Shown piece after piece: positions 17,691 to 40,137 of a DNA stretch of 64,000 bases. The stretch is from Marmoricola sp. OAE513. Lineage in GTDB: Bacteria > Actinomycetota > Actinomycetes > Propionibacteriales > Nocardioidaceae. The position numbers and the translations under genes were made by a program. The stretch spans positions 2,108,001 to 2,172,000 of the forward strand of contig NZ_JBEPOC010000001.1 of the NCBI RefSeq assembly GCF_040546585.1, in the 5' to 3' direction. The stretch's first letter is position 1. The number at the start of each line of letters is the position of its first letter. The notes under the pieces are model-generated. The model was not told the origin of the DNA. It worked only from the letters and a program-made list of their open reading frames with translations, and searched no databases.

Positions 17691-17860
17691 GCCGGACGTG
17701 AACTTTTCTTCCCACGTCCCGTAATCGGAGCACCCTGCTTCCGGTCTTTCTGCGCGAGAGCCCGGCAAAGGGTGACTCGTGGCGTGCCATCCGGGGTTGG
17801 TGCGTGCCCGAGGCACCTCGACGCGCCGGGCCCCCCAAGGCCCGAAGGAAGTCACGAGAA
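17691..17860 (+). other. Possible structured 5' leader of the giant surface protein gene
   Basis: This 170-bp gap has no gene. It contains GGACGTG...CACGTCC (17694-17719) around a T-rich loop, TGGCGTGCCA (17780-17789) and GGTGC...GCACC (17799-17817). GCCCGGC (17760-17766) can pair with GCCGGGC (17825-17831) and would enclose the last two hairpins. AAGGA precedes the ATG at 17861 by 11 bases. I compared it by eye with c-di-GMP, c-di-AMP, SAM and ZTP riboswitch cores and found no convincing match. Confidence 0.3.
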
Positions 17861-23800: not shown

Positions 23801-26800
23801 GTGACCTGCCCGAAGACGACGCTGACCGCGGGTGAGTCGATGACCTGCACTGCCAGCTCCTACCTCGTGACCCTTGCCGATGTCGGCGCCGGCGCCGTGA
23901 AGAACTCGGCCACAGCGACCGGCACGCCGCCGACCGGTGGGCCGGTGACGACGCCTCCGGACACCACGACGACCCCGCTGGTGCAGAGCCCGTCGCTGAC
24001 GATCGACAAGAAGGTCGCCTCGATCACGGACGTGAACGGCAACGGCAAGAACGACGCGGGCGACAAGATCAACTACGTCTTCGATGTCAAGAACGCGGGC
24101 GACGTCACTCTGACCTCGGTCAACGTGACTGACACCTTGGTCGCCCCCGCTGGCCCGGAGGTCACGGTGACCTGCCCGAAGACCACCCTGGCGGCCGGCG
24201 AGCTGATGACCTGCACGGCGTCGGCGTACACGATCACCGCAGCCGACGTCGACGCGACGACGGTGAAGAACTCCGCGACCGCCACCGGTACTCCGCCGAC
24301 CGGCGCACCGATCACGACGCCGCCGGACACCACGACCACCCCGCTGACCCAGTCGCCCGGCCTCGCGATCGACAAGAAGGTCGCATCGATCACGGACGCG
24401 AACGGCAACGGCAAGACTGACGCCGGCGACAAGCTCAACTACATCTTCGACGTGAAGAACACCGGCGACGTCACTCTCACCTCGGTCAGCGTCACGGACA
24501 TCCTGGTCGCCCCGGCAGCTCCGGCCGTGACCGTCACCTGTCCCAAGACCACGTTGGTCGCAGGAGAGACGATGTCCTGCACCGCTACCGCCTACGTCGT
24601 GACGTCCTCGGACATCGGTGCGGGCGCTGTGAAGAACTCCGCGACCGCCACGGGCAACCCGCCGTCCGGTGCGCCGATCACCACTGCTCCGGACACGACG
24701 ACCACGCCGCTGGTGCAGTCGCCCTCGCTGACGATCGACAAGAAGGTCGCGTCGATCACGGACGTGAACGGCAACGGTAAGACCGACGCCGGCGACCGGA
24801 TCAACTACGTCTTCGACGTCGAGAACGCAGGGGACGTGACCCTGACCGGTGTATCTGTGGCGGATGTCCTGGTCGCACCGGCCGGTCCTGCTGTCACGGT
24901 GACCTGCCCGAAGGCGACCCTGGCTGCGGGGGAGACGATGACCTGCACGGCATCCGCCTACGTCGTCACTGCCGCCGACGTCGACGCCGGAGCCGTGAAG
25001 AACTCGGCGACTGCGACGGGCACGCCGCCGTCCGGTGCGCCGATCACGACGGCTCCTGACACGACCACGACGCCGCTGGCGCAGTCCTCGTCGCTGACCC
25101 TGGACAAGAAGGTCGCGTCGATCACGGACGTCAACGGCAACGGAAAGACCGACGCGGGCGACAAGATCAACTACACGTTCGACGTGAGCAACGCTGGCAC
25201 GGTGACCCTGTCGGGCATCTCGGTGACGGACACGCTCGTGTCTCCGGCTGGTCCTGCTGTCACGGTGACGTGCCCGAAGACCACGCTGGCTGCGGGTGAG
25301 TCGATGACGTGCTCGGCGTCCGCCTACGTCATCACCGCTGCGGACGTGACGAACGGCAAGGTCGACAACGCGGCCACCGCCACCGGCACGCCGCCGACGG
25401 GTTCGCCGATCACCACGGCGCCGGACACCACGAGCACCCCGCTCGCCCAGGCGCCAGCGCTGACGCTCGACAAGCGCGTCGCCTCGGTGACCGACCTGAA
25501 CGGCAACGGCAAGAACGATGCCGGCGACAGGATCAGCTACGCCTTCGACGTGAAGAACACCGGCGACGTGACCCTCACCTCCGTCGGCGTCACCGACGTG
25601 CTCGTCGCGCCGGCAGCTCCTGCCGTCGCGGTCAGCTGCCCGAAGACCGCCTTGGTCCCGGGTGAGTCGATGACCTGCACGGCTTCCGGGTACGTCGCGA
25701 CCACGGCAGACGTCGCCGCCGGTGCGGTGAAGAACTCCGCCACCGCCACGGGTACGCCCCCGACGGGTTCGCCGATCACGACCGCTCCGGACTCGACGAC
25801 CACGCCGCTGGTCCAGTCGCCCTCGCTGACCATCGACAAGAAGGTCGCGTCGATCACGGACGTCAACGGCAACGGCAGGACCGACGCCGGGGACAGGATC
25901 ACCTACTCCTTCGACGTGCAGAACGTCGGCAACGTCGCGCTCAGCAGCGTGGCCGTGACCGATGTGCTGGTGGCTCCGGCAGGACCGGCCGTCTCGGTCA
26001 CCTGCCCGAAGACGACCCTCGCCCTCGGCGAGCTGATGACGTGCACCGCCTCGGCGTACACCGTCACCGGCGCCGACGTCGACGCCGGTGCGGTCAAGAA
26101 CTCCGCTACCGCCACGGGCACGCCCCCGTCCGGTATGCCGGTCACGACGGGTCCCGACACGACGACCACGCCCCTGGTTCAGTCGCCCTCGCTGACCATC
26201 GACAAGAAGGTCGCGTCGATCACGGACGTCAACGGCAACGGGAAGACCGATGCCGGTGACAGGATCAACTACGTCTTCGACGTGAAGAACGCGGGCGACG
26301 TGACCCTCACGTCCGTGGGTGTCGCCGACGTCCTCGTCGCCCCGGCCGGTCCGGCCGTCACGGTGACGTGCCCCCAGACGTCGCTTGCGCCGGGTGGGTC
26401 GATGACCTGCACCGCGTCGCCGTACACGGTGACCGCGGGTGACGTGAGCGTCGGATCAGTCAAGAACTCCGCGACCGCGACCGGCACTCCGCCGAACGGC
26501 ACCCCCGTGACGACGCCGCCGGACTCGACGACCACGCCGCTGGTCCAGACTTCTGCGTTGACCCTCGACAAGCGGGTCGCGTCGATCACGGACGTCAACG
26601 GCAACGGGAAGAACGACGCGGGAGACCGCATCAGCTTCGCGTTCGACGTGAAGAACACCGGCGACACCGCACTCTCCGCGGTCACCGTCGACGACGTCCT
26701 CGTCGCCCCGGCCGGGCCTCGGGTGACGGTCGTCTGCCCGAAGACCACGCTGGCTGCCGGCGAGTCGATGACCTGCGCGGCCACCCCGTACGTCGTGACC

Positions 26801-29800
26801 GCCGCGGACGTTGACGCCGGTGCGGTGAAGAACTCGGCGACCGCGACGGGCACCCCGCCGACCGGTACGCCGATCACGACGGCTCCGGACACGACCACGA
26901 CCCCGCTGGTCCAGAGCCCGCTCCTGACCCTCGACAAGAAGGTCGGGTCGGTCACCGACGTGAACGGCAACGGCAAGAACGACGCGGGCGACAAGATCGT
27001 CTACCTGTTCGACCTGAAGAACCAGGGTGATGTCACCCTGACCGGTGTCACCGTGAACGACACCCTGGTCGCGCCCGCGGGTCCCGCCGTCTCGGTGACC
27101 TGTCCCAAGACCACGCTGGCCGCCGGTGAGTCGATGACCTGCACCTCCTCGGCCTACACCGTCACCTCGTCCGACGTCTCGAACGGCAAGGTCGACAACG
27201 GGGCGACCGCGGCGGGCACGCCCCCGTCAGGTCCCGTCGTGACGACCCCGGAGGACACCACCTCCACGCCTCTGGCGCAGAGCTCGTCGCTGACCATCGA
27301 CAAGAAGGTCGCGTCGATCACGGACGTCAACGGCAACGGGAAGACGGATGTCGGTGACAAGATCAGCTACGCCTTCGACGTCAAGAACGCCGGCGACAGC
27401 ACGCTGACCGCGGTCGCGGTCGTCGACGTCCTGGTCGCTCCCGCCGGCCCCGCCGTGAGCGTGACCTGCCCGAAGTCCACGCTGGTCGCGGGTGAGTCGA
27501 TGACCTGCACGGCGAGCCCGTACACGGTCACGGGATCGGACGTCGACGCCGGTGCGGTGAAGAACTCGGCGACGGCGACCGGGACTCCGCCGTCGGGTAC
27601 GCCGATCACCTCGCCGCCGGACACGACGACCACGCCGTTGGCACAGGGCTCGTCGCTCACGATCGACAAGAAGGTCGCGTCGATCACGGATGCCAACGGC
27701 AACGGGAAGAACGACGTCGGGGACAGGATCAACTACGTCTTTGACGTGAAGAACACCGGCGACGTGACCCTCACGTCGGTGGGCGTGCTTGACACGTTCG
27801 TCTCCCCGGCCGGTCCCGCTGTCGCGGTGACCTGCCCGAAGTCCACGCTGGTCGCGGGTGAGTCGATGACCTGCACCGCGAGCCCGTACACGATCACCTC
27901 CGCGGACGCCGATGCGTCGACGGTGAAGAACTCGGCGACCGCAACCGGTACCCCGCCGACCGGCACGCCGATCACCACGCCACCGGACACCACGAGCACG
28001 ACGGTCGACCAGGCGCCGTCGCTGACGGTCGACAAGAAGGTCGCGTCGATCGCTGACGCGAACGGCAACGGGAAGACCGACGCCGGGGACCGGATCAGCT
28101 ACGTCTTCGACGTGAAGAACACCGGCAACGTGACCCTCACGTCGGTGAGTGTCCAGGACACCTTCGTCTCCCCGGCCGGCCCGGCCTTGACGCTGGCGTG
28201 CCCGAAATCGGTCTTGGCGGCCGGTGAGTCGATGACGTGTGCGGCCACCCCGTACGTCGTGACCGCAGCTGACGTCGACGCCGGTGCGGTGAAGAACGCG
28301 GCGACCGCAACGGGCACTCCGCCGACGGGATCCCCGGTGACAACGCCGCCCGACACCACGACCACGCCCGTCGTCCAGAGCGCTGCCCTGACGGTCGACA
28401 AGAAGGTCGCCTCGATCGCGGACGTCAACGGCAACGGGAAGACCGACGCGGGCGACAAGATCACCTACGCCTTCGACGTGACCAACGCGGGGAACGTGAG
28501 CCTCACGGGGATCTCCGTGTCCGACGTCCTGGTGGCGCCGGCCGGTCCTGCCGTGACGGTCACCTGCCCGAAGGGGACGCTCGCCGCCGGTGAGTCGATG
28601 ACGTGCACCGCCACCGCCTACACGGTGACTGCTGCCGACGTGAACGCCGGCGCGGTCAAGAACTCGGCGACCGCGACGGGCACCCCGCCGACCGGTACGC
28701 CGATCAGCACCCCGCCGGACACCACGACCACGCCCGTCGTCCAGAGCGCTGTCCTGACGGTCGACAAGAAGGTCGCCTCGGTCAGCGACCTGAACCTCAA
28801 CGGGAGGACCGACGCGGGCGACAAGATCAGCTACACCTTCGACGTGACCAACGCGGGCAACGTGAGCCTCACGGGGATCTCCGTGTCCGACGTCTTGGTG
28901 GCGCCGGCCGGCCCTGCCGTGACGGTCACCTGCCCGAAGGGGACCCTCGCCGCCGGTGAGTCGATGACCTGCACGTCGTCGGCGTACACCGTGACGTCTG
29001 CCGACGTCGGAGCCGGTGCGGTGAAGAACTCGGCCACCGCGACGGGCACGCCCCCGTCCGGCACGCCGATCACCACGCCGCCCGACACCACGACCACGCC
29101 GGTCGCGCAGACCCCGTCACTGACCGTCGACAAGAAGGTCGCGTCGATCACCGACGTGAACGACAACGGCAAGACCGATGCCGGCGACAAGATCGCCTAC
29201 ACCTTCGACGTGAAGAACGTCGGCGACGTCACCCTGACGGCCGTCAGCATCCAGGACACCTTCGTCGCACCGGCCGGCCCGACCGTGGCGGTGACGTGCC
29301 CGAAGACCACGTTGGTGGCTGGCGAGTCGATGACGTGCACCGCGTCCAGCTACACGATCACGAGCCAGGACGTCGACGCCGCTGCGGTGAGGAACACCGC
29401 CACGGCATCCGGTACCCCGCCCACCGGTGGCCCGGTCACGTCGCCGCCGGACACCACGACGACCCCGGTCGTCCAGAGCTCCGGACTCAGCGTCGACAAG
29501 AAGGTCGCTGCGGTCACGGATCTGAACAACAACGGCAAGACCGATGCGGGTGACCGGGTCAGCTACACCTTCGACGTGAGGAACACCGGCACGGTGACCC
29601 TGACCGGCATCTCGGTGTCGGACACCTTCACCGCTCCTGCGGGTCCCGCCCTGACGGTGACCTGCCCGAAGAGCACCCTCGCGGCTGGCGAGTCGATGAC
29701 CTGCACGGCGAGCCCGTACGTCGTCACCGCAGCCGACGTCACCACGGGTGCGGTCAAGAACACGGCGACGGCAACGGGTACGCCTCCGTCGGGGCCGCCG

Positions 29801-32278
29801 GTCACGACGCCGCCGGACTCCACGACCACCCCGGTCGTGCAGACCCCGTCGCTCAAGGTCGACAAGAAGGTCAGCTCGATCAACGACACGAACGGCAACG
29901 GCAAGACCGACGCGGGCGATCTCATCGCGTACGTCTTCGAGGTCGAGAACGCGGGCAACGTCGCGCTCACCAACGTCGGCGTCACGGACACACTCGTCGC
30001 TCCCGCTGGGCCGGAGGTCACGGTGACGTGCCCGAAGACCGCGCTGGCTGCCGGCGAGTCGATGACCTGCACGGCGACGCCCTACAAGGTCACGGCAGCG
30101 GACGTTGCCGCGGGCAAGGTCGACAACGCAGCGACCGCCCAGGGCACCCCGCCGACCGGTTCGCCGATCGTCACCCCGCCCGACACCACGCACACCCCGA
30201 TCGACCGCAGCCCCTCGCTGACGGTGGAGAAGAAGGTGGCCTCGATCGCCGACGCGAACGGAAACGCGAAGACGGACGCCGGCGACCGGATCTCGTACAT
30301 CTTCGTCGTCACGAACGACGGTGACGTGCCCCTGAGCGGGGTCTCCGTGACGGACAAATTCGTCGCGCCTGCCGGTCCGGCGCTGACCGTGAGCTGCCCG
30401 AAGAGCTCGCTCGCGGTCGGGGAGTCGATGACCTGCGCGTCCTCGCCCTACGTTGTCACGGCAGCGGATGTGGACGCCGGCGCGATCAAGAACAGCGCCA
30501 CCGCGACCGGGACGCCGTCGGGTGGCAGCCCGCTGACGACCCCGCCGTCGACGACCAGCACGCCAGTCGCGCAGACCTCTCTGCTGCGGGTCGACAAGAA
30601 GGTCGCCTCGATCGAGGACGTGAACGGCAACGCCCGGACAGACGCCGGTGACAAGATCACCTACGCCTTCGAGGTGCAGAACACGGGCAACGTGAGCCTG
30701 ACCGGCATCGTCGTGACGGACACCTTCACGGCGCCCGCGGGTCCGGCGCTCGCGGTGACCTGCCCGAGGACCACCCTCGCTGCCGGTGCGTCGATGACCT
30801 GCACGGCGGGGGCGTACACGATCACGGCCGCCGATGTGCGCGCAGGCCGGGTCGACAACACGGCGACGGCGACGGGTACGCCGCCGTCCGGCCCGCCGGT
30901 GACCACCCCGCCGGACTCGGTGCACACCCCGGTCCTCCCGGTCGCGAAGCTCGAGGTCGACAAGAAGGTCGGCTCGATCGACGACGTGAACGGCAACACC
31001 AAGACCGATGCCGGCGACACGATCACCTACGCCTTCGTGGTCCGCAACAGCGGCGACGTCGACGTCAGCGACGTGAGTGTGACCGACACGTTGGTCGCTC
31101 CGGCCGGTCCTGCCCTGACCGTCACCTGCCCGGCGACGACCCTGGCGGCGGGTGCGTCGATGACCTGCACGTCGTCGCCCTACCTGGTCACGGCTGCAGA
31201 CGTCGACAGCGGTGCGGTGAAGAACTCCGCGACCGTGACCGGTACGCCGCCGTCGGGTCCGCCGGTGACCTCGCCTCCGGACACCACCTCGACCCCGCTC
31301 TCGCAGGCGGTGTCGATCAGCCTGGTCAAGGTCGCCGACAAGTCCCTGGTCGTGGCGGGGGAGACGATCCTCTACACGTTCACGGCGACGAACACCGGCA
31401 CCGTGACCCTGCGGGACGTGACCATCACCGAGGGCGCGTTCACCGGTGCGGGCAAGCTGGGAGCAGTCGTCTGTGCCCCGCTGAGCCAGCCCGCGGTGCT
31501 CGCCCCCGGCGCGACGTTGACCTGCACGGCCCCCTATTTGGTCCTGCCGGGCGACGCGGGCGGCAAGTCGCTCTCGAACACGGCGAACGTCGTCGGTACG
31601 CCGCCGACCGGCCCGAAGGTGACCGACACCGACAAGGTGGTCGTTCCGGGCTCGACGGGCTCCGCGGTCTCGCCGGGTCTGTCGTTCGACAAGCGCGTCT
31701 CGAAGCTCGTCGATGCCAACCGGAACGGGTTCGCCGACGCCGGTGACGAGATCTCCTACGAGTTCACGGTCTACAACACCGGCGACGTGACGATGACCGG
31801 CCTGCGGGTCAAGGACCCGAAGCTCACCGCGGCTGGGATCACCACCACCTGCCCGAAGAGCTCCCTGGCGCCGGGCGCCTCGATGATCTGTGCCGCCGAC
31901 GAGCCGTACCGGATCACGGCAGCCGACGTCCGGGCGGGGCGTGCCGTCAACACCGCCAACGCGCAGGGCACCCCGCCGGCCGGCGGCACCCTTGACTCGC
32001 CCGGGGACTCCACGGAGACGCCGGTCTGCCCGTCGGACGCTGATCGCGTCGAAGCTGAGGCGTGCGGTGGCCAGGTGGTCGACACGCCGGGCGACGACAA
32101 CGGCGGGTCCGGCGGTCCTGCAGCCCCGTCGACCCAGGTGTTGCCGGCGACCGGCGCCTCGAGCTGGCTGCTGCCGGCCGGTGGCCTCGGCATCCTCATG
32201 GCGCTGACCGGCGTCGTGATCGTGGTGGCACCCCACCGCAAGAAGCGTCCGCGGCTGAACGGTAAGCACGCGGCTTGA
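17861..32278 (+). CDS. Giant cell-wall-anchored repeat protein (DUF11/DUF7507-type repeats, LPATG)
   Basis: The protein has 4,805 residues from ATG 17861, chosen because the signal peptide (residues about 15-42, ending QSVTA) starts there. An N-terminal globular region (about 45-285) with paired cysteines is followed by several DUF11-like beta-sandwich domains to about 700. Residues 701-4482 are 31 units of 122 residues, a diverged 32nd unit and a last unit to about 4725. Each unit has a DxNGNGxxDAGD loop like a dockerin or thrombospondin calcium site, a DVKNTGDVTLT core, and two cysteines 13 apart (TCPK...MTC). LPATG is at 4761, then a hydrophobic helix and RKKRPR tail. The layout fits a long stalk holding an N-terminal head away from the wall. 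The ligand is unknown. A lipoprotein gene follows 17 bp later. Confidence 0.85.
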   Translation: MMLRTRRSSGGRALVTRFTNSGLALAVVAMALVAFTTPQSVTADRTTPVAAGVPAAGVPLFSEDFSNQSATSSGIPLTSYVGTSGMLYTADTPYLPAGGQCNGWVMNSSTPRPTTAQDAGCNNNQPAGWQQLQAMAAALGTAQGMTAAQAASNQVLTEYTNKASGTIAAGYELKTSSTIVAQPGHYYAISAYFAEVNCFAAHAKMTFSLLVNGVADTLGTGANETPLDPCTFPGGQLIGETQVAKLQSGAIRMPLTGTANLGFQLYNNTTSGSGNDVSFDLPQIVDVTPTVDKSFSPALIGPGGKSTLTITVTNTTDLQAKNDWTITDNLPSGLVVAAAPNLGGTCKNNAAAGSVAYSATAAAGSSTINVVGGDIPAGQTSCTITVDVTAAAEGTYTNGPSNVDTNLLPPTPATLVVRAPRITLVKTLGTARKADTDEFTMQIRTGSATGTVVSSATNATTAGSGSTVTSGTGTTGAYVATAGTPYFLTEAASGTTSLPAYGATITCTDSKGLQTGLPNGAAFSGSLTLTPVAGADITCTLSNSALPAPVLNVSKTAGTVTGPDANGNYQVTHDVKVTNSGNATGTYTGLTDTPAFAANLKPTAASWSSSGSGAAAAGTASPFPASSPYTFTIVPSSTSIAAGVTHTYTVTTTFRYTDLVQATACAGSGTGLYNSAALSGTQEQGVSTDNAACVPPPTPPSPALTIDKRVASISDANTNSRTDTGDKINYAFDVKNTGNVTLTSVSVADTLVAPAGPAVTVTCPKTTLVPGEQMTCTASAYTVTAADMNAGSVRNSATATGTPPVGSPVTTGPDTTTTPLAQSPALTIDKKVASVTDVNGNGRTDAGDRITYTFDVKNAGDVTLTSVNVSDTFVAPAAPALSITCPKTTLVAGELMTCTAAVYTITAADVGVAQVDNAATATGTPPTGAAITTPPDTTHTPITQTPALTIDKKVASVTDANGNGRTDTGDRIAYVFDVKNTGDVALTAVSVTDVLVAPAGPEVSVTCPKTSLAVGELMTCTASTYTVTSADLNTGAVKNSATAKGTPPSGTAITTPPDTTTTPLTQSPSLTLDKKVASITDVNGNGKTDVGDKINYAFDLKNAGDVTLTSVGVLDTFVAPAGPALTITCPKTTLVAGESMTCTAAPYTITTADLGVAQVDNTATASGTPPSGPVVTTPPDTTHTPVAQSPALTLDKRVASVTDVNGNGRNDAGDKITYAFDVKNTGDVTLTGVSVTDAFVAPAGPAITVTCPKTTLVAGESMTCTATAYTVTAADVGSGAVKNSATASGTSPSGAGLTTPPDATSTPLVQTPALTLDKRVASVTDVNGNGRNDAGDRVNWVFDVKNTGDVTLTGVSVTDVLTAPAAPEVTVTCPKTTLVAGELMTCTATAYTATSADVTAGAVKNSATATGTPPSGGPISTPPDTTTTPLVQSPALTIDKKVASITDLNGNGKNDAGDRINWVFDVKNTGDVPLTSVSVSDVLVAPANPAITVSCPKATLAVGELMTCTASGYTVTGADVDAGAVKNSATATGTPPSGTPVTTPPDTTTTPLVQGAALTIDKRVASVTDLNGNGRNDAGDRISYVFDVTNTGNVTLTSVGVTDTLVAPAGPEVSVTCPKTALAPGETMTCTASPYTVTGNDVTAGAVKNSATATGTPPAGGPITTPPDATTTPLVQSPSLTIDKKVSSITDVNGNGKNDAGDRITYAFDVKNVGDVPLTAVSVTDVLVAPAGPAVSVTCPKTALTVGELMTCTASPYTVTSSDVNAGAVKNSATATGTPPTGGPVTTAPDTTTTPLVQSPSLTIDKKVASITDLNGNGKNDAGDRINYVFDVKNAGDVTLTSVSVADTLVAPAGPEVTVTCPKTTLVAGESMTCTASAYVITGADVGNGKVDNSATATGTPPTGGPVTTPPDTTSTPLVQSPALSLDKKVASITDLNGNGKNDAGDRINWVFDVKNTGDVTLTSVSVTDTLVAPAGPEVTVTCPKTTLTAGESMTCTASSYLVTLADVGAGAVKNSATATGTPPTGGPVTTPPDTTTTPLVQSPSLTIDKKVASITDVNGNGKNDAGDKINYVFDVKNAGDVTLTSVNVTDTLVAPAGPEVTVTCPKTTLAAGELMTCTASAYTITAADVDATTVKNSATATGTPPTGAPITTPPDTTTTPLTQSPGLAIDKKVASITDANGNGKTDAGDKLNYIFDVKNTGDVTLTSVSVTDILVAPAAPAVTVTCPKTTLVAGETMSCTATAYVVTSSDIGAGAVKNSATATGNPPSGAPITTAPDTTTTPLVQSPSLTIDKKVASITDVNGNGKTDAGDRINYVFDVENAGDVTLTGVSVADVLVAPAGPAVTVTCPKATLAAGETMTCTASAYVVTAADVDAGAVKNSATATGTPPSGAPITTAPDTTTTPLAQSSSLTLDKKVASITDVNGNGKTDAGDKINYTFDVSNAGTVTLSGISVTDTLVSPAGPAVTVTCPKTTLAAGESMTCSASAYVITAADVTNGKVDNAATATGTPPTGSPITTAPDTTSTPLAQAPALTLDKRVASVTDLNGNGKNDAGDRISYAFDVKNTGDVTLTSVGVTDVLVAPAAPAVAVSCPKTALVPGESMTCTASGYVATTADVAAGAVKNSATATGTPPTGSPITTAPDSTTTPLVQSPSLTIDKKVASITDVNGNGRTDAGDRITYSFDVQNVGNVALSSVAVTDVLVAPAGPAVSVTCPKTTLALGELMTCTASAYTVTGADVDAGAVKNSATATGTPPSGMPVTTGPDTTTTPLVQSPSLTIDKKVASITDVNGNGKTDAGDRINYVFDVKNAGDVTLTSVGVADVLVAPAGPAVTVTCPQTSLAPGGSMTCTASPYTVTAGDVSVGSVKNSATATGTPPNGTPVTTPPDSTTTPLVQTSALTLDKRVASITDVNGNGKNDAGDRISFAFDVKNTGDTALSAVTVDDVLVAPAGPRVTVVCPKTTLAAGESMTCAATPYVVTAADVDAGAVKNSATATGTPPTGTPITTAPDTTTTPLVQSPLLTLDKKVGSVTDVNGNGKNDAGDKIVYLFDLKNQGDVTLTGVTVNDTLVAPAGPAVSVTCPKTTLAAGESMTCTSSAYTVTSSDVSNGKVDNGATAAGTPPSGPVVTTPEDTTSTPLAQSSSLTIDKKVASITDVNGNGKTDVGDKISYAFDVKNAGDSTLTAVAVVDVLVAPAGPAVSVTCPKSTLVAGESMTCTASPYTVTGSDVDAGAVKNSATATGTPPSGTPITSPPDTTTTPLAQGSSLTIDKKVASITDANGNGKNDVGDRINYVFDVKNTGDVTLTSVGVLDTFVSPAGPAVAVTCPKSTLVAGESMTCTASPYTITSADADASTVKNSATATGTPPTGTPITTPPDTTSTTVDQAPSLTVDKKVASIADANGNGKTDAGDRISYVFDVKNTGNVTLTSVSVQDTFVSPAGPALTLACPKSVLAAGESMTCAATPYVVTAADVDAGAVKNAATATGTPPTGSPVTTPPDTTTTPVVQSAALTVDKKVASIADVNGNGKTDAGDKITYAFDVTNAGNVSLTGISVSDVLVAPAGPAVTVTCPKGTLAAGESMTCTATAYTVTAADVNAGAVKNSATATGTPPTGTPISTPPDTTTTPVVQSAVLTVDKKVASVSDLNLNGRTDAGDKISYTFDVTNAGNVSLTGISVSDVLVAPAGPAVTVTCPKGTLAAGESMTCTSSAYTVTSADVGAGAVKNSATATGTPPSGTPITTPPDTTTTPVAQTPSLTVDKKVASITDVNDNGKTDAGDKIAYTFDVKNVGDVTLTAVSIQDTFVAPAGPTVAVTCPKTTLVAGESMTCTASSYTITSQDVDAAAVRNTATASGTPPTGGPVTSPPDTTTTPVVQSSGLSVDKKVAAVTDLNNNGKTDAGDRVSYTFDVRNTGTVTLTGISVSDTFTAPAGPALTVTCPKSTLAAGESMTCTASPYVVTAADVTTGAVKNTATATGTPPSGPPVTTPPDSTTTPVVQTPSLKVDKKVSSINDTNGNGKTDAGDLIAYVFEVENAGNVALTNVGVTDTLVAPAGPEVTVTCPKTALAAGESMTCTATPYKVTAADVAAGKVDNAATAQGTPPTGSPIVTPPDTTHTPIDRSPSLTVEKKVASIADANGNAKTDAGDRISYIFVVTNDGDVPLSGVSVTDKFVAPAGPALTVSCPKSSLAVGESMTCASSPYVVTAADVDAGAIKNSATATGTPSGGSPLTTPPSTTSTPVAQTSLLRVDKKVASIEDVNGNARTDAGDKITYAFEVQNTGNVSLTGIVVTDTFTAPAGPALAVTCPRTTLAAGASMTCTAGAYTITAADVRAGRVDNTATATGTPPSGPPVTTPPDSVHTPVLPVAKLEVDKKVGSIDDVNGNTKTDAGDTITYAFVVRNSGDVDVSDVSVTDTLVAPAGPALTVTCPATTLAAGASMTCTSSPYLVTAADVDSGAVKNSATVTGTPPSGPPVTSPPDTTSTPLSQAVSISLVKVADKSLVVAGETILYTFTATNTGTVTLRDVTITEGAFTGAGKLGAVVCAPLSQPAVLAPGATLTCTAPYLVLPGDAGGKSLSNTANVVGTPPTGPKVTDTDKVVVPGSTGSAVSPGLSFDKRVSKLVDANRNGFADAGDEISYEFTVYNTGDVTMTGLRVKDPKLTAAGITTTCPKSSLAPGASMICAADEPYRITAADVRAGRAVNTANAQGTPPAGGTLDSPGDSTETPVCPSDADRVEAEACGGQVVDTPGDDNGGSGGPAAPSTQVLPATGASSWLLPAGGLGILMALTGVVIVVAPHRKKRPRLNGKHAA
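19961..31306 (+). repeat. Tandem array of 31 coding repeats of 366 bp
   Basis: Unit 1 begins at SPALTIDKRV (19961), unit 2 at 20327, and the first clearly different unit at 31307. The span of 11,346 bp is exactly 31 x 366, so no net indel has accumulated. Central units are close to identical (many start SLTIDKKVASITDVNGNGK). The last four drift (VEKKVASIADANGNAK, VDKKVGSIDDVNGNTK), as expected when unequal crossing-over keeps the middle of an array uniform. Copy number could be wrong if short reads were used. Confidence 0.9.
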
Positions 32279-33989: not shown

Positions 33990-34964
33990 GTGGGGGAGAC
34001 CGCGACCCGTACGTTGGCCCTGCTCTCGCTGCTCCAGAGCCGGCCCGACTGGTCGGGGGCCGACCTCGCCGAGCGTCTCGGCGTCTCGGACCGGACGATC
34101 CGCAACGACGTCGCCCGGTTGCGCGAGCTCGGCTACCCGGTGGACGCGGTCCGAGGCCCGGGTGGCCGTTACCGCCTCGGCGTCGGAGCCAAGCTCCCGC
34201 CCCTGCTGCTCGACGACGAGGAGGCGGTGGCGGTCGCCGTCGGGCTCCGCGCGGCCACCGGCGTCTCCGGTGTCGAGGAGACCAGCGCACGGGCGCTCGC
34301 CAAGCTCGAGCAGGTCCTGCCCGACCGGCTGCGTCGCAAGCTCACCGCGGTGGTGAAGGCGACCACCGCAGGTCCGGTCAACACCGACAGCAACGTGGAG
34401 GATCCGGAGGTCGACGCCTCGGTGCTCGAAGCCGTCTCGCTCGCGATCCGTGACCACGACGGCCTCCGCTGCGACTACCGCGACGAGCCGCGCGAGCTCG
34501 AGCCGTACCACCTGGTCGCCTGGCAACGTCGCTGGTACCTGGTCGCGCGCGACCCGAGGAGCGACACCTGGGCGCCGTACCGGGTGGACTGGCTCCGGGT
34601 GAAGACGCCGGGGGGCCGCCGGTTCGTCCCGGTCGAGTTCCCGGGCGACCTCACCGACTTCGTCGTCCGCGAGGTCGCCCGCACCGGCTGGGCAGTGCAC
34701 GCCCGGATCCGCATCGACGCGGAGCCCGACGAGGTGCTCGGCCGGATCAACCCGGCGGTCGGCACCGTCGAGGCGCACCCCGACGGTGGCAGCGTGCTGG
34801 TCACCGGAGGGGACAGCTACGAGGTCGTCGCGGTGTGGATCTCCATGCTGGGCATGGACTTCCACGTCGACGACCCCGCCCTGGCCGAGCACGTGCGTGC
34901 TCTGGCGGAGCGCTACTCCGCTGCGGTCAGCGGTCGAACGCGTCCAGGACCTGCTTCTCGGTGA
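33990..34964 (+). CDS. WYL-domain helix-turn-helix transcriptional regulator
   Basis: This 324-residue regulator starts at GTG 33990, with GAGG upstream. The N-terminal winged helix (DLAERLGVSDRTIRNDVARL) is of the DeoR/HTH_11 kind. The central WYL domain carries YHLVAWQRRWYLVARD, and a C-terminal WCX-like extension follows. WYL domains bind nucleotides or other ligands and switch DNA binding. Divergence from the epoxide hydrolase with palindromes in the gap suggests local control of that gene. The 3' end overlaps the sulfotransferase gene by 38 bp tail to tail. Confidence 0.85.
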   Translation: MGETATRTLALLSLLQSRPDWSGADLAERLGVSDRTIRNDVARLRELGYPVDAVRGPGGRYRLGVGAKLPPLLLDDEEAVAVAVGLRAATGVSGVEETSARALAKLEQVLPDRLRRKLTAVVKATTAGPVNTDSNVEDPEVDASVLEAVSLAIRDHDGLRCDYRDEPRELEPYHLVAWQRRWYLVARDPRSDTWAPYRVDWLRVKTPGGRRFVPVEFPGDLTDFVVREVARTGWAVHARIRIDAEPDEVLGRINPAVGTVEAHPDGGSVLVTGGDSYEVVAVWISMLGMDFHVDDPALAEHVRALAERYSAAVSGRTRPGPASR

Positions 34965-36084
34965 GGCCGTAGTCCTTGAGGTCGTAGGAGTGCTTCGGCG
35001 CTGCCTTGCCCTCCTTGGCCTCGCGGTCGATCTCCTCGACGGCAGCCTGCGTCTCCGGAGTCCAGTCCAGGCCGAACTTCTCGTACACGCTGCGCGCGGT
35101 GCCGACCTGGTCCTTGACGAGGTCGCCGAAGGAGATGTCGATGAACTGGTCCTGGTCGTACTTGCCCCGGGCGTCGTGGAACGTGTGGAACGCGCGCGAC
35201 CAGAGGTCCAGCTGGGTGTGGCCGATGACGCCACCGACGTAGGTGTCGGACTGTCCGACGGTCGTCTCGGCCGACAGCGAGCACGACGAGGCGATGCAGG
35301 TGACCGGCTCGCGGTGCGTGTAGACGATGAGTGCGTCGGGGTACACCGTCATCAGGGCGTCCAGGCCGCTCATGTGCGAGGGGTTCTTGAGAACCCAGCG
35401 CTTGTCGGTGTCGTTCATGCCGACCAGCTGCAGATTCTGCTTGTGCCGGGCGTAGGCGTCGGTCCAGTCCTGGTTCTTGAGCCACTCGGTGTAGCGCGGA
35501 AGGTTCGCCAGCGACTCGTACGAGTTCGACTTCCCGGTCTGGCGCAGCAGCCGCCAGCACTCCTCGACGGTGGTCGCATCCATGTAGTGGATGCCCATGA
35601 ACTCGGGCTGCTCGATGTGGTGCGCGGTGAACGCCTGCTGCATCGCGTTGAAGATCGGGTCCGACTCCCAGGTCTCGCGCGGCGGCCGGGGCTGCGGGTA
35701 CTGGGTCAACCACATCTCCAGGCCCTGCGAGGCGGGGTCGGCGTGCAGCAGCCGGTGCAGGATCGTGGTGCCGGTGCGGGGCAGGCCCATCAGGAAGATG
35801 GGGCGTTCGATCTTCACGTCCGCGTGCTCAGGGTGCGCGGCGAACTGAGCCTGTGTCAGCAGGACGCCGACCAGCGCGCTCTTCACCTCGGAGCGGTGGA
35901 AGTAGTTGCCGCGCGGGGTCAGGCCGGCCTCGGGGGAGGCGAGGTCCTCGGTGAGGACCCGCAGACCTTCCTCGTGGAGCCCGTCGCCGAAGTCGGTCAT
36001 GCCCGTGGTCCGTACGGCGGCCGCGACGATGTCCTCGTAGCTGCCGACGTCCGGGCGTTCCCGGGTCATCACGTTGTCGCTCAT
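34927..36084 (-). CDS. Sulfotransferase family protein
   Basis: This 385-residue protein is of the Sulfotransferase_3 type, which moves sulfate from PAPS to an alcohol or phenol. The 5'-phosphosulfate loop is MGLPRTGTTILHRLL (near residue 99). The 3'-phosphate-binding motif is YTHREPVTCIASSCS (near 257). It is probably the last gene of the SDR / DUF1214 / LLM transcription unit, separated from the SDR gene by 82 bp holding a palindromic repeat. In such clusters a sulfotransferase may modify a hydroxylated lipid or steroid; this is inference. The end overlaps the WYL gene. Confidence 0.8.
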   Translation of the reverse strand: MSDNVMTRERPDVGSYEDIVAAAVRTTGMTDFGDGLHEEGLRVLTEDLASPEAGLTPRGNYFHRSEVKSALVGVLLTQAQFAAHPEHADVKIERPIFLMGLPRTGTTILHRLLHADPASQGLEMWLTQYPQPRPPRETWESDPIFNAMQQAFTAHHIEQPEFMGIHYMDATTVEECWRLLRQTGKSNSYESLANLPRYTEWLKNQDWTDAYARHKQNLQLVGMNDTDKRWVLKNPSHMSGLDALMTVYPDALIVYTHREPVTCIASSCSLSAETTVGQSDTYVGGVIGHTQLDLWSRAFHTFHDARGKYDQDQFIDISFGDLVKDQVGTARSVYEKFGLDWTPETQAAVEEIDREAKEGKAAPKHSYDLKDYGLTEKQVLDAFDR

Positions 36085-36108
36085 TGCTCTGCTTTCGTGG
36101 TGCGGCGT

Positions 36109-36146
36109 CCCGTCGGGCTCGACGACCGGTCGTCGAGCCTGACGGG
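36109..36146. repeat. Extragenic palindromic repeat between sulfotransferase and SDR genes
   Basis: A 24-bp perfect palindrome (36116-36139, arms GGCTCGACGACC) extends to 38 bp with one mismatched pair. The half-site GCTCGACGACCGG recurs twice at 38177-38207, in the next gap of the same gene row. It looks like a dispersed extragenic repeat and could also form a hairpin in the mRNA. Confidence 0.6.
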
Positions 36147-36166
36147 ACGTGGTGACGGTTCTCTGC

Positions 36167-37009
36167 TCAGTCGTGGAATTCGCCGCAGTCGACGGTCAGC
36201 ATTTGACCGGTGACGGCGGAGGCCAGGTCGCTGGCCAGGAAGAGCGTGGCGCGGGCGACCTCTTCGGAGGAAGCCAGACGCTGCAGGTCGGTCGGGGCGG
36301 CCTTCTCGGCGTACACCTGCTCGTGGGTCTTGTTCTCGACAGCGCCGAGGAAGTCGAAGTAACCGCGGTTCACGTCCTCGTAGATGTACGACGGCGCGAC
36401 GCTGTTCACCCGGATGCCGCGCGGGCCGAGCTCGGTGGCCAGCGAGGACGCGAGGTGCTCCAGGGCGCCCTTGCTCAGCTTGTAGCCGGCGTACTCGGGC
36501 TGCGAGGAGAACGAGACGCAGGAGTTGAGCATGATGATCGAGCCCTTGGACTCCGAGAGTGCGTCGGCGAAGAGAGCCGAGAGGCGCAGCGGTGCGAAGA
36601 CGTTGGTCTCGTTGACCTTCGCCAGCGCCACCGGGTCGATCTGCGTGATCGGGTCCATCGGCGGGATGGTGAACGCGTTGTTGATGACGCAGTCGACGCG
36701 GCCGAAGGCCTCGAGGGTCTTGTCGCGCAGGTTGGCCCGCGACTCCTCGCTGCGCACGTCGGTGACGACCTTCGCGACCTTGACCCCGTAGCCCTCGCAC
36801 AGCTCGGCGATCTCGTCGAGACGCGACTCGGTTCGGCTCGCGATGACCAGGTCGGCGCCCATCTTGGCGGCCTCCTCGGCCAGGGACTTGCCCAGGCCGG
36901 GACCGATGCCCGAGATCACGATGACCTTGCCCTTCAGCAACGGGGCCGGGGTGTAGCGGTCCTCGATCGAGGTGTCGTGTGCTTCTGCGTAGCCAAGCTC
37001 GTTGCTCAA
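36167..37009 (-). CDS. SDR family oxidoreductase
   Basis: The protein has 280 residues from TTG 37009, which overlaps the upstream stop (TTGA) and has AAGGA eight bases before it. The Rossmann motif is SGIGPGLGKSLA (near residue 34), followed by NNA near 110. The catalytic Ser is in LNSCVS and the Tyr/Lys pair in YAGYKLSK. The C-terminal TGQMLTVDCGEFHD is the usual SDR ending. An NAD(P)-dependent alcohol/ketone oxidoreductase. The substrate is unknown, but the row (LLM, DUF1214, SDR, sulfotransferase) and the KstR-like box upstream suggest a hydrophobic ring compound. Confidence 0.85.
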   Translation of the reverse strand: MSNELGYAEAHDTSIEDRYTPAPLLKGKVIVISGIGPGLGKSLAEEAAKMGADLVIASRTESRLDEIAELCEGYGVKVAKVVTDVRSEESRANLRDKTLEAFGRVDCVINNAFTIPPMDPITQIDPVALAKVNETNVFAPLRLSALFADALSESKGSIIMLNSCVSFSSQPEYAGYKLSKGALEHLASSLATELGPRGIRVNSVAPSYIYEDVNRGYFDFLGAVENKTHEQVYAEKAAPTDLQRLASSEEVARATLFLASDLASAVTGQMLTVDCGEFHD

Positions 37010-38154
37010 GAGATCATCCTTCGTGCGATGCCGACCTGGCGGGCGGCGATTCGGGTGGAGTACTGCTCGGGGGTGACTCGGTTCGAGTCGTAGTACGGGA
37101 GGTGCTTCTCGATCTCGTCGAAGGCGACCAGCTCGACGGTCGGGCCGTCGTCGGCGGTCAGCTCGCGCTCGATGCGCTGCCAGCGCAGCATCATCACGCC
37201 CTTCGGGTGGTCGGTGGTGTCCAGCCAGTTGGCGATGCCGGGGTTCTTCGTCGACACGACGTAGCGGAACTTGCCGTCGGGGTCCGCCTGGGACTGCGCC
37301 TTGGTGAGCGACGACTGGTAGTGCTCGTAGTCGGTGGAGACGTACCACTTCGAGCCGATCTGGATCGCGTAGTAGTCGCAGTGCGGTACCGGCACCGTGA
37401 TCACCAGGGCCTGGTCGTCGCTGAGCTCGTAGTGCCCCAGGGAGGAGAACTGCGACGCGAGCCCGCCGGGAGTCGACTTGGGCGCCGTCAGGGTGTTGAC
37501 CGGCTCCTTGTAGGTGAACCACTCGGGGAACGCGAACCAGGTCTTGATCTTGCCCAGCAGCATCTTCGCCGCGACGCCGTACCGCTTGGAGACGTTGTCC
37601 ATCGAGAACGGCTCGCGCGGGACGCCGGCGGTGTCGAGCCGCTGCAGCCGCAGGGTGCCGCGTGTCTCGGTGTTCCAGTCGTTGAACACCTCGCGGATGA
37701 TCAGCGTCGCGCCCTTCTTCAGGCCGAGCTCCGGACCGAACTTCCAGGAGAACGAACCGTCCTCCGCGATGTCCAGTTCGCGGTCGTCGAACGCCGCCAC
37801 GCTGGTGGGCGCGCCCTCGGGCGAGTAGTTGCCGTCCATGATCTGGAAGGACAGGTCCGCCGCGGTGCCGCGCACGCCGGAGAGCTCGTAGGAGGCTCCC
37901 TCGGTCAGGTAGGCGTTGAAGTAGATCGCGTCGGGGTTGTCCAGACCCTGCCGGGCGTACTGGTGCGTGGGGTTGACCAGCACCGGGTGCACGAGGTCGT
38001 AGTCGAAGGCCATCTGCAGCGAGGACCGGATGCTGCCGGCGAGGTAGTCGTACCCCTCGGCGCGCTCCTGCTCGGAGATCTCGAACGGCGGGTTCGCGAT
38101 CAGCTGCTCGGCCTCGGCGACGGCATCGGAGAAGACCTTCGTAACGTCAGCCAT
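37006..38154 (-). CDS. DUF1214 domain protein
   Basis: The protein has 382 residues from ATG 38154; GTG codons three and four positions earlier are alternatives. It has no signal peptide or membrane segment. The body matches DUF1214-type proteins (SYELSGVRGTAADLSFQIMD, NDWNTETRGTLRLQRLD) and the C-terminal half is beta-rich with several Trp/Tyr. Such proteins occur beside SDRs and sulfotransferases in actinobacterial catabolic clusters, but their activity is not known. Its stop overlaps the SDR start, so the two are translationally coupled. Confidence 0.65.
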   Translation of the reverse strand: MADVTKVFSDAVAEAEQLIANPPFEISEQERAEGYDYLAGSIRSSLQMAFDYDLVHPVLVNPTHQYARQGLDNPDAIYFNAYLTEGASYELSGVRGTAADLSFQIMDGNYSPEGAPTSVAAFDDRELDIAEDGSFSWKFGPELGLKKGATLIIREVFNDWNTETRGTLRLQRLDTAGVPREPFSMDNVSKRYGVAAKMLLGKIKTWFAFPEWFTYKEPVNTLTAPKSTPGGLASQFSSLGHYELSDDQALVITVPVPHCDYYAIQIGSKWYVSTDYEHYQSSLTKAQSQADPDGKFRYVVSTKNPGIANWLDTTDHPKGVMMLRWQRIERELTADDGPTVELVAFDEIEKHLPYYDSNRVTPEQYSTRIAARQVGIARRMIS

Positions 38155-38176
38155 TCCGGTCACCACGTCTCGACAA

Positions 38177-38207
38177 GCTCGACGACCGGGTGCGGCTCGA
38201 CGACCGG
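38177..38207. repeat. Two copies of GCTCGACGACCGG between LLM and DUF1214 genes
   Basis: The 13-mer occurs at 38177-38189 and 38195-38207, 18 bp apart, preceded by TCTCGACAA. The same 13-mer forms half of the palindrome at 36109-36146. It occupies most of the 58-bp gap, which otherwise has nothing recognisable. Confidence 0.6.
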
Positions 38208-38212
38208 ACGCG

Positions 38213-39097
38213 TCACAGCGACACCTTGCTGATGATGTCCTCGGCGTACCGGTTGATGTTGTCTATCTTGGTCTGCAGCGGCTCGGTGTCCGGTCCCATG
38301 ATGTAGGGCACCCGGAAGCCGACGATCGCGTCGGTGACGCCCTTGTCCTCCAGGCGCTTGATGCCGTCCACGGTGTAGGCGTCGTAGGAGATCACGTGGA
38401 TCTCGAACTCGTCGGGACCGCGGGTGTCACCTTCCTCCTTGCGGATCTCGGCCAGACGGGTCAGCAACCTGTCGAGCTCCTCGCCGTCGCCACCGGCGTG
38501 CATCCAGCCGTCGCCCTTGACGACGGCCCGGCGCAGGGCGGCGTCAGCGTGCCCGCCGACCAGCACCGGGATGGGCTCGGTCGGGGCCGGGCACTGCTTG
38601 AGCGACTGGATGTCGTAGAACTCGCCGTGGTACTCGAAGAACTCGCCGCTGGTCAGGCCGCGCAGGATGTCGATGCACTCGTCGAGGCGCTTGCCGCGCC
38701 GCGCCCACGGGACGCCCAGGGCCTCGAAGTCCTCGGGCCACGGCGAGATGCCGACGCCGAGTCCGAGCCGGTTGTTCGACAGGAAGGCGAGGCTGCTCGC
38801 CTGCTTGGCCGTGAGGACCGGCGGCCGGATCGGCATCTTCAGGACGAACGGCGTCAGCCGCAGCTTCTCGGTCACCGCGAAGATGTGCGCGCAGAGGATC
38901 ATCGTCTCGATGAACTCCTTGCCCTCGAGGAACTCCCGGTCACCGGTGTCGGTGTAGGGGTACTTCGAGTCGGACTCCTGCGGGTAGATCAGGGAGTCGG
39001 CAATCGTCATCGAGGTGTAGCCGGCTGCTTCGCAGGCCTGAGCCATCGGCGCCCAGTACTCGGTCTTCGTCATGCCTTCGGCAAAGGAGAATCGCAT
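38213..39097 (-). CDS. LLM class F420-dependent oxidoreductase
   Basis: This 294-residue flavin/F420 oxidoreductase is of the luciferase-like TIM-barrel family. It begins MRFSFAEGMTKTEYW and has the RLGLGVGISPWPEDFEALG segment and VLVGGHADAALRRAV near residue 178, as in TIGR03619-like proteins. F420 use is inferred from family type, because the residues that bind the cofactor cannot be separated from FMN by eye. It is the first gene of the minus-strand row and starts 11 bp from a KstR-like box shared with the SnoaL-like gene. Confidence 0.8.
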   Translation of the reverse strand: MRFSFAEGMTKTEYWAPMAQACEAAGYTSMTIADSLIYPQESDSKYPYTDTGDREFLEGKEFIETMILCAHIFAVTEKLRLTPFVLKMPIRPPVLTAKQASSLAFLSNNRLGLGVGISPWPEDFEALGVPWARRGKRLDECIDILRGLTSGEFFEYHGEFYDIQSLKQCPAPTEPIPVLVGGHADAALRRAVVKGDGWMHAGGDGEELDRLLTRLAEIRKEEGDTRGPDEFEIHVISYDAYTVDGIKRLEDKGVTDAIVGFRVPYIMGPDTEPLQTKIDNINRYAEDIISKVSL

Positions 39098-39106
39098 CCC
39101 GCAAGA

Positions 39107-39122
39107 CTAGAACGTGTTCCAG
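39107..39122. promoter_or_regulatory. KstR-like operator in the LLM / SnoaL divergent promoter
   Basis: CTAGAACGTGTTCCAG fits the published KstR pattern TnnAACnnGTTnnA exactly (39108-39121) and is palindromic except for one pair. KstR is a TetR-family repressor of cholesterol and steroid catabolism in actinobacteria. The regulator is not encoded in this window, so only the site supports the link. Confidence 0.6.
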
Positions 39123-39201
39123 TTTCATGGCTAGAGTGATCAAGCAGTCAAGGAGGGCTTTTTTCTGAAGGCGCCTCTCGATCGACATCCAGGAGCGCAG
39201 C

Positions 39202-39642
39202 ATGGAATTGCAGGACATCCTCGACCGCACCGAGATCCGTGACGCGATCACGAACTACACGTTCGGCATCGACCTCGCCGAGTGGGACCGCCTCGACAAG
39301 GTGTTCACGCCGGATGCCGCGATCAACTACGTCGAGTCCGGTGGCATCGAGGCGACGTTCGCCGAGGTGAAGCCCTGGCTGATCGAGAACCTCGCCGTGG
39401 CGCCCAGCCGCGTGCACATGATCGGACAGATCGACTACGAGCACCTCGACGGCGGAGAGGTCCAGGCCAACGCGTACTTCCACAACCCGATGACGTTCGA
39501 CTTCGGCCCGGACTCCAAGTTCCCCGTCGAGGTGACCGGCATCTACCGGCACACCTTCACCCGCACCGAGGCCGGCTGGCGCTCGCGCAAGCTGCACGAG
39601 ACCGTGCTCTGGCGCCGCGGTTTCGAAGCGCTCGGTATGTGA
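39202..39642 (+). CDS. SnoaL-like / NTF2-fold protein
   Basis: A 146-residue cone-shaped alpha+beta domain. It opens with the helix ELQDILDRTEIRDAITNYTFGID and continues with WDRLDKVFTPDAAINY, the typical SnoaL_4 start, and ends with strands around VTGIYRHTFTRTEAGWR. AGGAG lies six bases before the ATG. The fold can host isomerase, dehydratase or cyclase activity, or only bind a ligand. It is divergent from the LLM gene across the KstR-like box and is followed 21 bp later by a deazaflavin-type reductase. Confidence 0.75.
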   Translation: MELQDILDRTEIRDAITNYTFGIDLAEWDRLDKVFTPDAAINYVESGGIEATFAEVKPWLIENLAVAPSRVHMIGQIDYEHLDGGEVQANAYFHNPMTFDFGPDSKFPVEVTGIYRHTFTRTEAGWRSRKLHETVLWRRGFEALGM

Positions 39643-39663
39643 CCCGGTCGTTCGAGCGCGCCG

Positions 39664-40137
39664 ATGGACAAGAAGCCGAAGGGTCTCGACGACCCCGGGA
39701 CCGTGAAGTTCATGAAGGTCATGGCCGCCGCGAACGTCTGGCTGTTCAAGCGCACGGGCGGGCGCCTGGGTTCGCACTGGCGGATCGGCGCGGGATTCCG
39801 GAACCCCGTCCCCATCTGCCTGGTCGAGCACACCGGGCGCAAGACCGGCCTGCCGCGGACCACCCCGCTGGTCTACCTCCGCGACGGCGACCGGGTGGTC
39901 GTGGTCGCGTCGCAGGCGGGTCGGCCGGAGAACCCGATGTGGTTCCTCAACGTCACCGCCGATCCCGAGGTCGTCGTGCAGACGGGACGCGACCGGGTAC
40001 CGATGAGGGCGCACGTGGCCGACGCCGACGAGCGTGCCGTGCTCTGGCCGAAGCTGGTCGACCTCTACCCGGACTACGACAGCTACCAGTCGTGGACCGA
40101 GCGGGTCATCCCGGTGGTCGTGCTCGAACCTCGGTAG
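39664..40137 (+). CDS. Nitroreductase family deazaflavin (F420)-dependent oxidoreductase
   Basis: This 157-residue split-barrel protein is of the Ddn/TIGR00026 type. The segment PICLVEHTGRKTGLPRTTPLVYL is the F420-binding signature. GRPENPMWFLNVTADPEV and the C-terminal YQSWTERVIPVVVLEP complete the fold. Members reduce quinones or nitro compounds with F420H2. It lies 21 bp after the SnoaL-like gene and is probably co-transcribed from the KstR-like promoter. Confidence 0.85.
   Translation: MDKKPKGLDDPGTVKFMKVMAAANVWLFKRTGGRLGSHWRIGAGFRNPVPICLVEHTGRKTGLPRTTPLVYLRDGDRVVVVASQAGRPENPMWFLNVTADPEVVVQTGRDRVPMRAHVADADERAVLWPKLVDLYPDYDSYQSWTERVIPVVVLEPR

Follow-up and report, generated by a model that had tools for sequence, protein, structure and literature searches.

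A KstR-type operator in a sulfotransferase gene row of Marmoricola sp. OAE513 and its candidate links to sulfate activation

The closest described relative of the locus reported here lies in the KstR steroid regulon of Mycobacterium tuberculosis and M. smegmatis, where KstR control of the operator at Rv3531c has been known since the regulon work of 2007. In the available part of PMC1995591, the Rv3531c/Rv3532 intergenic site of M. tuberculosis is marked "+ve", i.e., bound by KstR in an electrophoretic mobility shift assay; Rv3531c, Rv3530c, and Rv3529c are listed elsewhere as a hypothetical protein, a possible oxidoreductase, and "CHP" (PMC6429209), and Rv3529c is named sulfotransferase Stf1 in the available part of PMC8882603. 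Here we describe a 64,000-nucleotide stretch of the genome of the soil bacterium Marmoricola sp. OAE513 (contig NZ_JBEPOC010000001.1, positions 2,108,001 to 2,172,000; hereafter "the window"), in which a row of genes is arranged around an operator whose sequence at 39106-39125, ACTAGAACGTGTTCCAGTTT, is identical at 19/20 positions to the M. tuberculosis site ACTAGAACGTGTTCCTGTTT (Rv3531c/Rv3532). We take Rv3531c–Rv3530c–Rv3529c to encode a DUF1214-like protein, a short-chain dehydrogenase/reductase (SDR), and a sulfotransferase, and we know of no role assigned to a DUF1214-like–SDR–sulfotransferase operon in the cholesterol regulon of mycobacteria and their relatives. Since a search for the exact 29-base M. 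tuberculosis operator returned no match in 396 genomes of the genus of one trio-bearing genome (G082), we equate Rv3531c with the DUF1214-like protein on the basis of the similar operators and the shared gene order.

On balance, we favor the reading that this row is a KstR-repressed steroid module in which the sulfotransferase sulfonates a sterol-derived hydroxyl, with the supply of the sulfate donor 3'-phosphoadenosine 5'-phosphosulfate (PAPS) being co-controlled in some lineages. Compared with the mycobacterial KstR operon, an LLM-class gene comes first here, a SnoaL–Ddn pair is divergent, cysDN has a KstR-type site of its own, and kstR is without one. Like Nocardioides simplex VKM Ac-2033D, a member of the same family with a described steroid regulon (PMC7807495, PMC7593942), the genome appears to combine KstR and KstR2 regulons; the terms sulfotransferase, F420, and LLM are absent from the main texts of both of these papers, as are cysD and "sulfat-" from that of PMC7807495. 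The sulfate-activation genes resemble the CysD/CysNC complex in comprising CysD, CysN, and adenosine 5'-phosphosulfate (APS) kinase, but differ in that CysN and APS kinase are separate genes and that a KstR-type operator stands at cysD. Within the open-licence literature searched, we found neither a link between KstR and PAPS synthesis nor a title on a KstR-controlled sulfotransferase. The genes of the row are as follows, in window coordinates:

38213-39097, minus strand: LLM-class F420-dependent-type oxidoreductase, first gene of the operon (PF00296; TIGR03619, 175.6 bits, cut-off 166.9)
37006-38154, minus strand: DUF1214-like protein (PF06742, 17.5 bits, cut-off 25; AlphaFold model like 6ans)
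36167-37009, minus strand: SDR (PF13561; NF005909 above cut-off)
34927-36084, minus strand: PAPS-type sulfotransferase (PF13469, 193.9 bits, cut-off 27; 2zq5, E 2.7e-128)
39202-39642, plus strand: SnoaL-like (SnoaL_4) protein, divergent from the LLM operon (PF13577)
39664-40137, plus strand: Ddn-type deazaflavin (F420)-dependent reductase (PF04075; Pfam and NCBIfam support)

Operator, predicted promoters, and regulator

The KstR-type operator CTAGAACGTGTTCCAG occupies window positions 39107-39122, its 14-bp core (39108-39121) fits the KstR pattern TNNAACNNGTTNNA, and the palindrome TnnAACnnGTTnnA, a feature of KstR-regulon membership, is present in the promoter region. The pattern fixes only 8 bases; it occurs twice in the window, against 0.11 expected, and the second match (2409-2422) is intragenic according to a simple gene caller. 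Across the genome (3,890,914 bases in a single contig), 55 matches were detected compared to 7 for a reversed-pattern control, including many near steroid or lipid genes, and 12 sites are perfect copies of TAGAACNNGTTCTA. When two mismatches to TAGAACNNGTTCTA were allowed, the genome-wide count was not enriched (98 sites vs 132 for the control); degenerate sites are therefore uninformative by themselves, and our conclusions draw on sites that are near-perfect or conserved in position. A preliminary description of this DNA had reported a KstR-pattern match at 39107 and proposed looking for further sites of the pattern in the genome; both the match and the expected wider set of sites were recovered.

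The operator is also retained in relatives, which put this strain close to Nocardioides marmoriginsengisoli and further Nocardioides of the Marmoricola type (94% identity in the DUF1214-like protein). For 24 named, Nocardioides-type loci found by searching with the DUF1214-like protein, the operator (≤2 mismatches to TAGAACNNGTTCTA) before the LLM gene, the LLM gene itself, and the divergent SnoaL gene were each found in 24/24. The SDR and sulfotransferase genes follow further along in 22/24, with L071 and L072 cut off earlier by the ends of their contigs, and the Ddn gene was found in 8/24. Variations include a gap of 0.8-2.2 kb between the DUF1214-like and SDR genes (L067, L068, L074), one gene of the row aligning as two pieces (L063, L075), and an additional operator immediately ahead of the SDR gene in eight loci (L063, L065, L066, L067, L068, L069, L074, and L075). 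When the search was extended to the whole class, 48 of 296 genomes gave matches, from which we took 31 of the 32 places scoring >370 bits outside the genome itself, plus three weaker ones. All 31 orthologous loci have the order DUF1214-like–SDR–sulfotransferase (with an aldo/keto reductase gene inside in L161), and in 27 of them an operator immediately precedes the leading gene. An LLM gene ahead of the trio is confined to the 7 Nocardioidaceae loci. Within this sample, the sulfotransferase thus belongs to the core of the module, and the LLM, SnoaL, and Ddn genes are family-specific additions. The preliminary description had called a sulfotransferase unusual in such a set; given its presence in 22/24 named and 31/31 orthologous loci, it is instead a normal member.

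Inspection of the intergenic region suggests that the operator is integrated into two divergent promoters, with two predicted elements:

39104-39109, minus strand: predicted -10 TAGTCT of the LLM promoter, beginning inside the operator, with the ATG 6 nt downstream
39132-39137, plus strand: predicted -10 TAGAGT for SnoaL, with the operator's TAGAAC 18 nt upstream, at the -35 position

In all 25 sequences (the window and the 24 named loci), a TANNNT hexamer overlaps the end of the operator's right arm: its first TA belongs to the operator, and the final T alone is new information. The LLM ATG follows 6-7 nt past this hexamer in 23/25 and 28 nt past it in the other two (L057, L066), and we predict that the LLM operon mRNA is leaderless, with its -10 covered by KstR. 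A KstR motif overlapping the -10 has been described in mycobacteria, in the available part of PMC1995591. On the other side, the stretch ACTCT(A/G)G, which is the complement of the SnoaL -10 region, lies at the same place in 15/25 sequences, including the window, and TAGAAC with TAGAGT forms a candidate -35/-10 pair for SnoaL.

A KstR orthologue, whose absence the preliminary description had named as grounds for giving up a steroid link, is encoded in this genome (G000:C1 108241-109035, plus strand; start not settled). This TetR-family protein finds KstR structures as its best PDB matches (5ua2, E 2.3e-56), with a DNA-binding part near-identical to that of 5ua2, and its sole NCBIfam match at a threshold of E 1e-20 is the KstR model NF033703, at 266.2 bits slightly under the cut-off of 280. 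A KstR2 relative is found at G000:C1 62730-63359 on the minus strand (2ibd, E 2.7e-67; KstR2 4w1u, E 2.3e-63). Pfam scans of 40 genes neighboring the sites retrieved AMP-binding coenzyme A (CoA) ligases, a P450, thiolases, a ChsH2-type protein, a KstD-like flavoprotein, acyl-CoA dehydrogenases, and LLM and SnoaL proteins, i.e., gene types that a KstR regulon would be expected to contain. There are also several sites inside called genes or beside genes that are not steroid-like, such as a sodium/proton exchanger, solute-binding proteins, and a Mur-ligase-type protein. The proposal of a steroid or lipid module, made in the preliminary description, is thus upheld by the operator, by the KstR-type regulator, and by the steroid or lipid genes at many other sites.

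Two further sites were noted in the genome. A perfect KstR-type palindrome at G000:C1 3673559 (L026:7560-7573) runs into TAGTCT ahead of the flavin mononucleotide (FMN) riboswitch (L026:7612-7742) of a riboflavin operon; KstR control of this operon was considered and dropped, as no site was found within 300 bp of the remaining 20 FMN riboswitch places of the genus (one of them, in G335, having no upstream sequence). At a second locus (L043, G000:C1 2186593-2191201), two more sulfotransferases follow a TetR gene, with a near-perfect palindrome, AAGAACGCGTTCTA, at 2190020 and an APH-family gene in divergent orientation.

Sulfotransferase and sulfate activation

The sulfotransferase aligns with 2zq5, which we take to be M. 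tuberculosis Stf1, over residues 9-383, with P-loop and HR...S.CS segments in common. Residues G100, L101, R103, G105, T106, and T107, along with H257, R258, S266, C268, and S269, show no variation in an alignment of 26 out of about 54 available sequences, and these are presumably the PAPS-contacting 5'- and 3'-phosphosulfate motifs. To our knowledge, no acceptor is known for either the 2zq5 protein or the sulfotransferase of the window. The conserved PAPS motifs, combined with a PAPS supply linked to the module in several lineages (see below), favor real sulfonation, as far as can be read from sequence, while the "ring alcohol" of the preliminary description is a guess as to the sulfated group. 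Elsewhere, a region of a Planktothrix agardhii type I polyketide synthase (L212:3001-4089) is 34% identical to the sulfotransferase over 95% of the query. Distant paralogues of the sulfotransferase, DUF1214-like, and SDR genes (23-34% identity) are clustered in this genome (L163, G000:C1 1591052-1594600) and in other genomes (L162, L164), and the set at L162 is preceded by a perfect KstR-type site.

ATP sulfurylase (CysD) catalyzes the first step toward PAPS. The genome encodes CysD, CysN (TIGR02034), and APS kinase (TIGR00455), all above NCBIfam cut-offs, with APS kinase ~2 kb from cysD; two PF01507 matches correspond to one CysD and one CysH. A site, TGGAACGTGTTCTA, lies at G000:C1 2309468, 87 bp before the start of cysD, which is followed by cysN; the called cysN frame leaves the CysN models ~35 residues before its end (L045, G000:C1 about 2307126-2307230), like a frame change. 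CysH carries two cysteine pairs (CC and CxxC), which we take as the mark of the APS type; it scores under the cut-offs of TIGR02055 (216.6 < 235.3) and TIGR02057 (166.8 < 254.2) and above that of NF002537, phosphoadenylyl-sulfate reductase. According to the available part of PMC3141025, APS is the entry point of the reductive branch in M. tuberculosis, and PAPS is used by sulfotransferases.

Across the genus, CysD was detected in 21/24 genomes, and a site (≤1 mismatch) stands 74-100 bp before cysD in 10 of these 21. The distribution of this site follows that of the sulfotransferase orthologue: it is present in 10/11 genomes with an orthologue of at least 77% identity, in 0/4 at 53-63%, and in 0/6 without a match. 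In the genus cysD promoters, mean pairwise identity is 0.90 in the operator columns vs 0.65 in the other 139 columns. A search of the named genomes returned 9/23, largely from the same genomes as the 21, and is not a second confirmation.

Outside the family, sulfate activation is linked to the trio by adjacency. The best plasmid match of the sulfotransferase is in Tsukamurella tyrosinosolvens, where a hypothetical protein (45% identical to the DUF1214-like protein), an SDR, and a sulfotransferase are encoded divergently from cysD and an APS-kinase gene that also has a CysN-type GTPase domain, with an IclR-type gene between; one KstR-type site precedes cysD by 56 bp, and another precedes the trio by 38 bp. 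Matches to cysD, cysN, and APS kinase adjoin the trio in 4 of 24 non-Nocardioidaceae loci (L135, L139, L140, L153), and in none of 7 Nocardioidaceae loci or of the 24 named loci. L153 has one perfect site, located in the narrow stretch that separates cysD from the trio; in L135 and L140, one perfect site precedes the trio by 51 bp, at a distance of about 0.95 kb from cysD; and L139 has none. The genomes of these loci contain several CysD places (three in G107, two each in G031 and G266), compared to one in 25 of 30 trio-bearing genomes, the other multi-place genomes being G082 and G139.

Other features of the row and the window

The divergent layout given in the preliminary description, with LLM, SDR, and sulfotransferase genes facing SnoaL-like and F420-type reductase genes, agrees with gene positions and domains: the LLM oxidoreductase, SDR, and Ddn-type reductase are backed by both Pfam and NCBIfam, and the sulfotransferase and SnoaL-like protein by Pfam. 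The SDR start (TTG) is our choice and overlaps the preceding stop by 4 nt. The gene named "DUF1214" in the same description does exist, but its PF06742 score falls under the gathering cut-off, so that "DUF1214-like" is a fair name. Its AlphaFold model (mean predicted local distance difference test score, 80) is closest among solved structures to 6ans (Foldseek E 5.3e-31), with other entries weakly similar; 6ans itself is uncharacterized, and no function can be derived from the fold. The best PDB match of the SnoaL-like protein has an E value of only 0.034, and we do not claim a dehydratase role for it.

Copies of GGTCGTCGAGC are found in the operon gaps at 36117-36138 and 38177-38205; with 27 matches in the window (≤1 mismatch) vs 9.1 expected, this is perhaps a dispersed repeat. 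Elsewhere in the window, 17804-32278 holds a plus-strand open frame of 4824 aa, along with a 1050-aa frame on the opposite strand.

Readings of the locus

In the reading we favor, the row would form two accessory operons within the KstR regulon for steroids. Bound as a dimer to the 14-bp palindrome, KstR would cover the start of the -10 of the LLM–DUF1214-like–SDR–sulfotransferase operon, as well as the -35 region of SnoaL–Ddn, and would from this position repress both divergent units until released by a sterol-derived CoA ester, as for mycobacterial KstR. The core trio would be the counterpart of Rv3531c–Rv3530c–Rv3529c. The sulfotransferase would most likely transfer the sulfonate group from PAPS to a hydroxyl on a sterol-derived product or substrate of the SDR, and sulfate activation would rise upon sterol use, through the cysDN site in the Nocardioides clade or through the adjoining cysD–cysN–APS-kinase set elsewhere. 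The resulting sulfate ester may be either an end product or a transient activating group. KstR binding, repression, sterol induction, and PAPS use at this module are what we infer from these elements. Sulfotransferase domains embedded in polyketide synthases activate hydroxyls for elimination; a comparable scheme in sterol degradation, in which the SDR would set the hydroxyl, sulfate would act as the leaving group, elimination or reduction would fall to the SnoaL-like, LLM, or Ddn-type proteins, and KstR would raise PAPS, strikes us as rather improbable.

A number of observations weigh against a KstR-controlled steroid sulfation module. With regard to regulation, no KstR-type site (≤3 mismatches) lies near the start of kstR itself (G000:C1 108241-109035; L019:12242-13036), and kstR is self-repressed in mycobacteria according to the available part of PMC1995591; this is no bar to the operon of the window being a target, yet it is unlike mycobacteria. 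Four orthologous loci (L139, L143, L151, L154) have no operator directly upstream of the trio. For sulfate activation, the cysD site is missing from one genome with a close sulfotransferase (G333), the site of G324, among the ten found, deviates in the AAC..GTT core, and the ten genomes are relatives, so that a single gain may account for all of them. The cysD site is limited to one clade of the genus; outside the genus, a KstR-type site within 500 bp of the best cysD place was found in 1/30 trio-bearing genomes (G266, the genome of L153), a control that takes each genome's best place and leaves out 7 further CysD places. ATP sulfurylase also feeds cysteine synthesis, and its control need not serve sulfation. 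Finally, Rv3530c and Rv3529c are classed as "involved but not confirmed or predicted as essential" (PMC6429209), and an unrelated host-immune role has been assigned to M. tuberculosis Stf1 in the available part of PMC8882603. By analogy, the sulfotransferase may be dispensable for growth; the same class fits a module tied to degradation.

Some of these points are accommodated by a module that is KstR-controlled but whose sulfotransferase acts on a non-sterol, such as an envelope lipid, another alcohol, or a conjugation target, with cysDN serving general sulfur demand, e.g., for cysteine or CoA. We regard this as possible, if unlikely. It would fit the single CysD and single CysH, by which cysDN also feeds cysteine synthesis, the placement of Rv3529c outside the cholesterol-required class (PMC6429209), and the inclusion of other lipids in KstR regulons, as described in the available part of PMC1995591. 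General sulfur demand, however, needs no cysD adjoining the trio in genomes that have a further cysD place (G107, G031, and G266), and in the genus the cysD site tracks the close sulfotransferase orthologue, although relatedness alone could explain the latter.

Doubts could also be directed at the regulator or at the motif. That another TetR-family protein, rather than the KstR orthologue, binds the sites seems very improbable: there are 69 TetR_N matches in the genome to choose from, and the orthologue's score under the NCBIfam cut-off and the lack of a site at its own start leave some room, but KstR is the sole NCBIfam match of this protein, its DNA-binding part is nearly that of 5ua2, and the sites match the KstR-bound sequence, with many on expected targets. 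A chance motif between genes without common control we rejected, and give it hardly any weight: a pattern with 8 fixed bases does yield 7 control matches in the genome, but this is to be set against the 55 observed, the conserved operator columns at cysD, and the presence of the operator at the same place in 24/24 relatives with diverged flanks.

Taken together, these comparisons tie sulfate activation to the operon in two ways, through a KstR-type site at cysDN in one clade and through an adjoining cysD–cysN–APS-kinase set in others. For a sulfotransferase whose function has so far been unassigned, this gives a direct prediction, namely that growth on sterols would consume PAPS and yield a sulfated intermediate or product. 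Overall, the comparisons point to sulfation as a genuine component of how bacteria use steroids.

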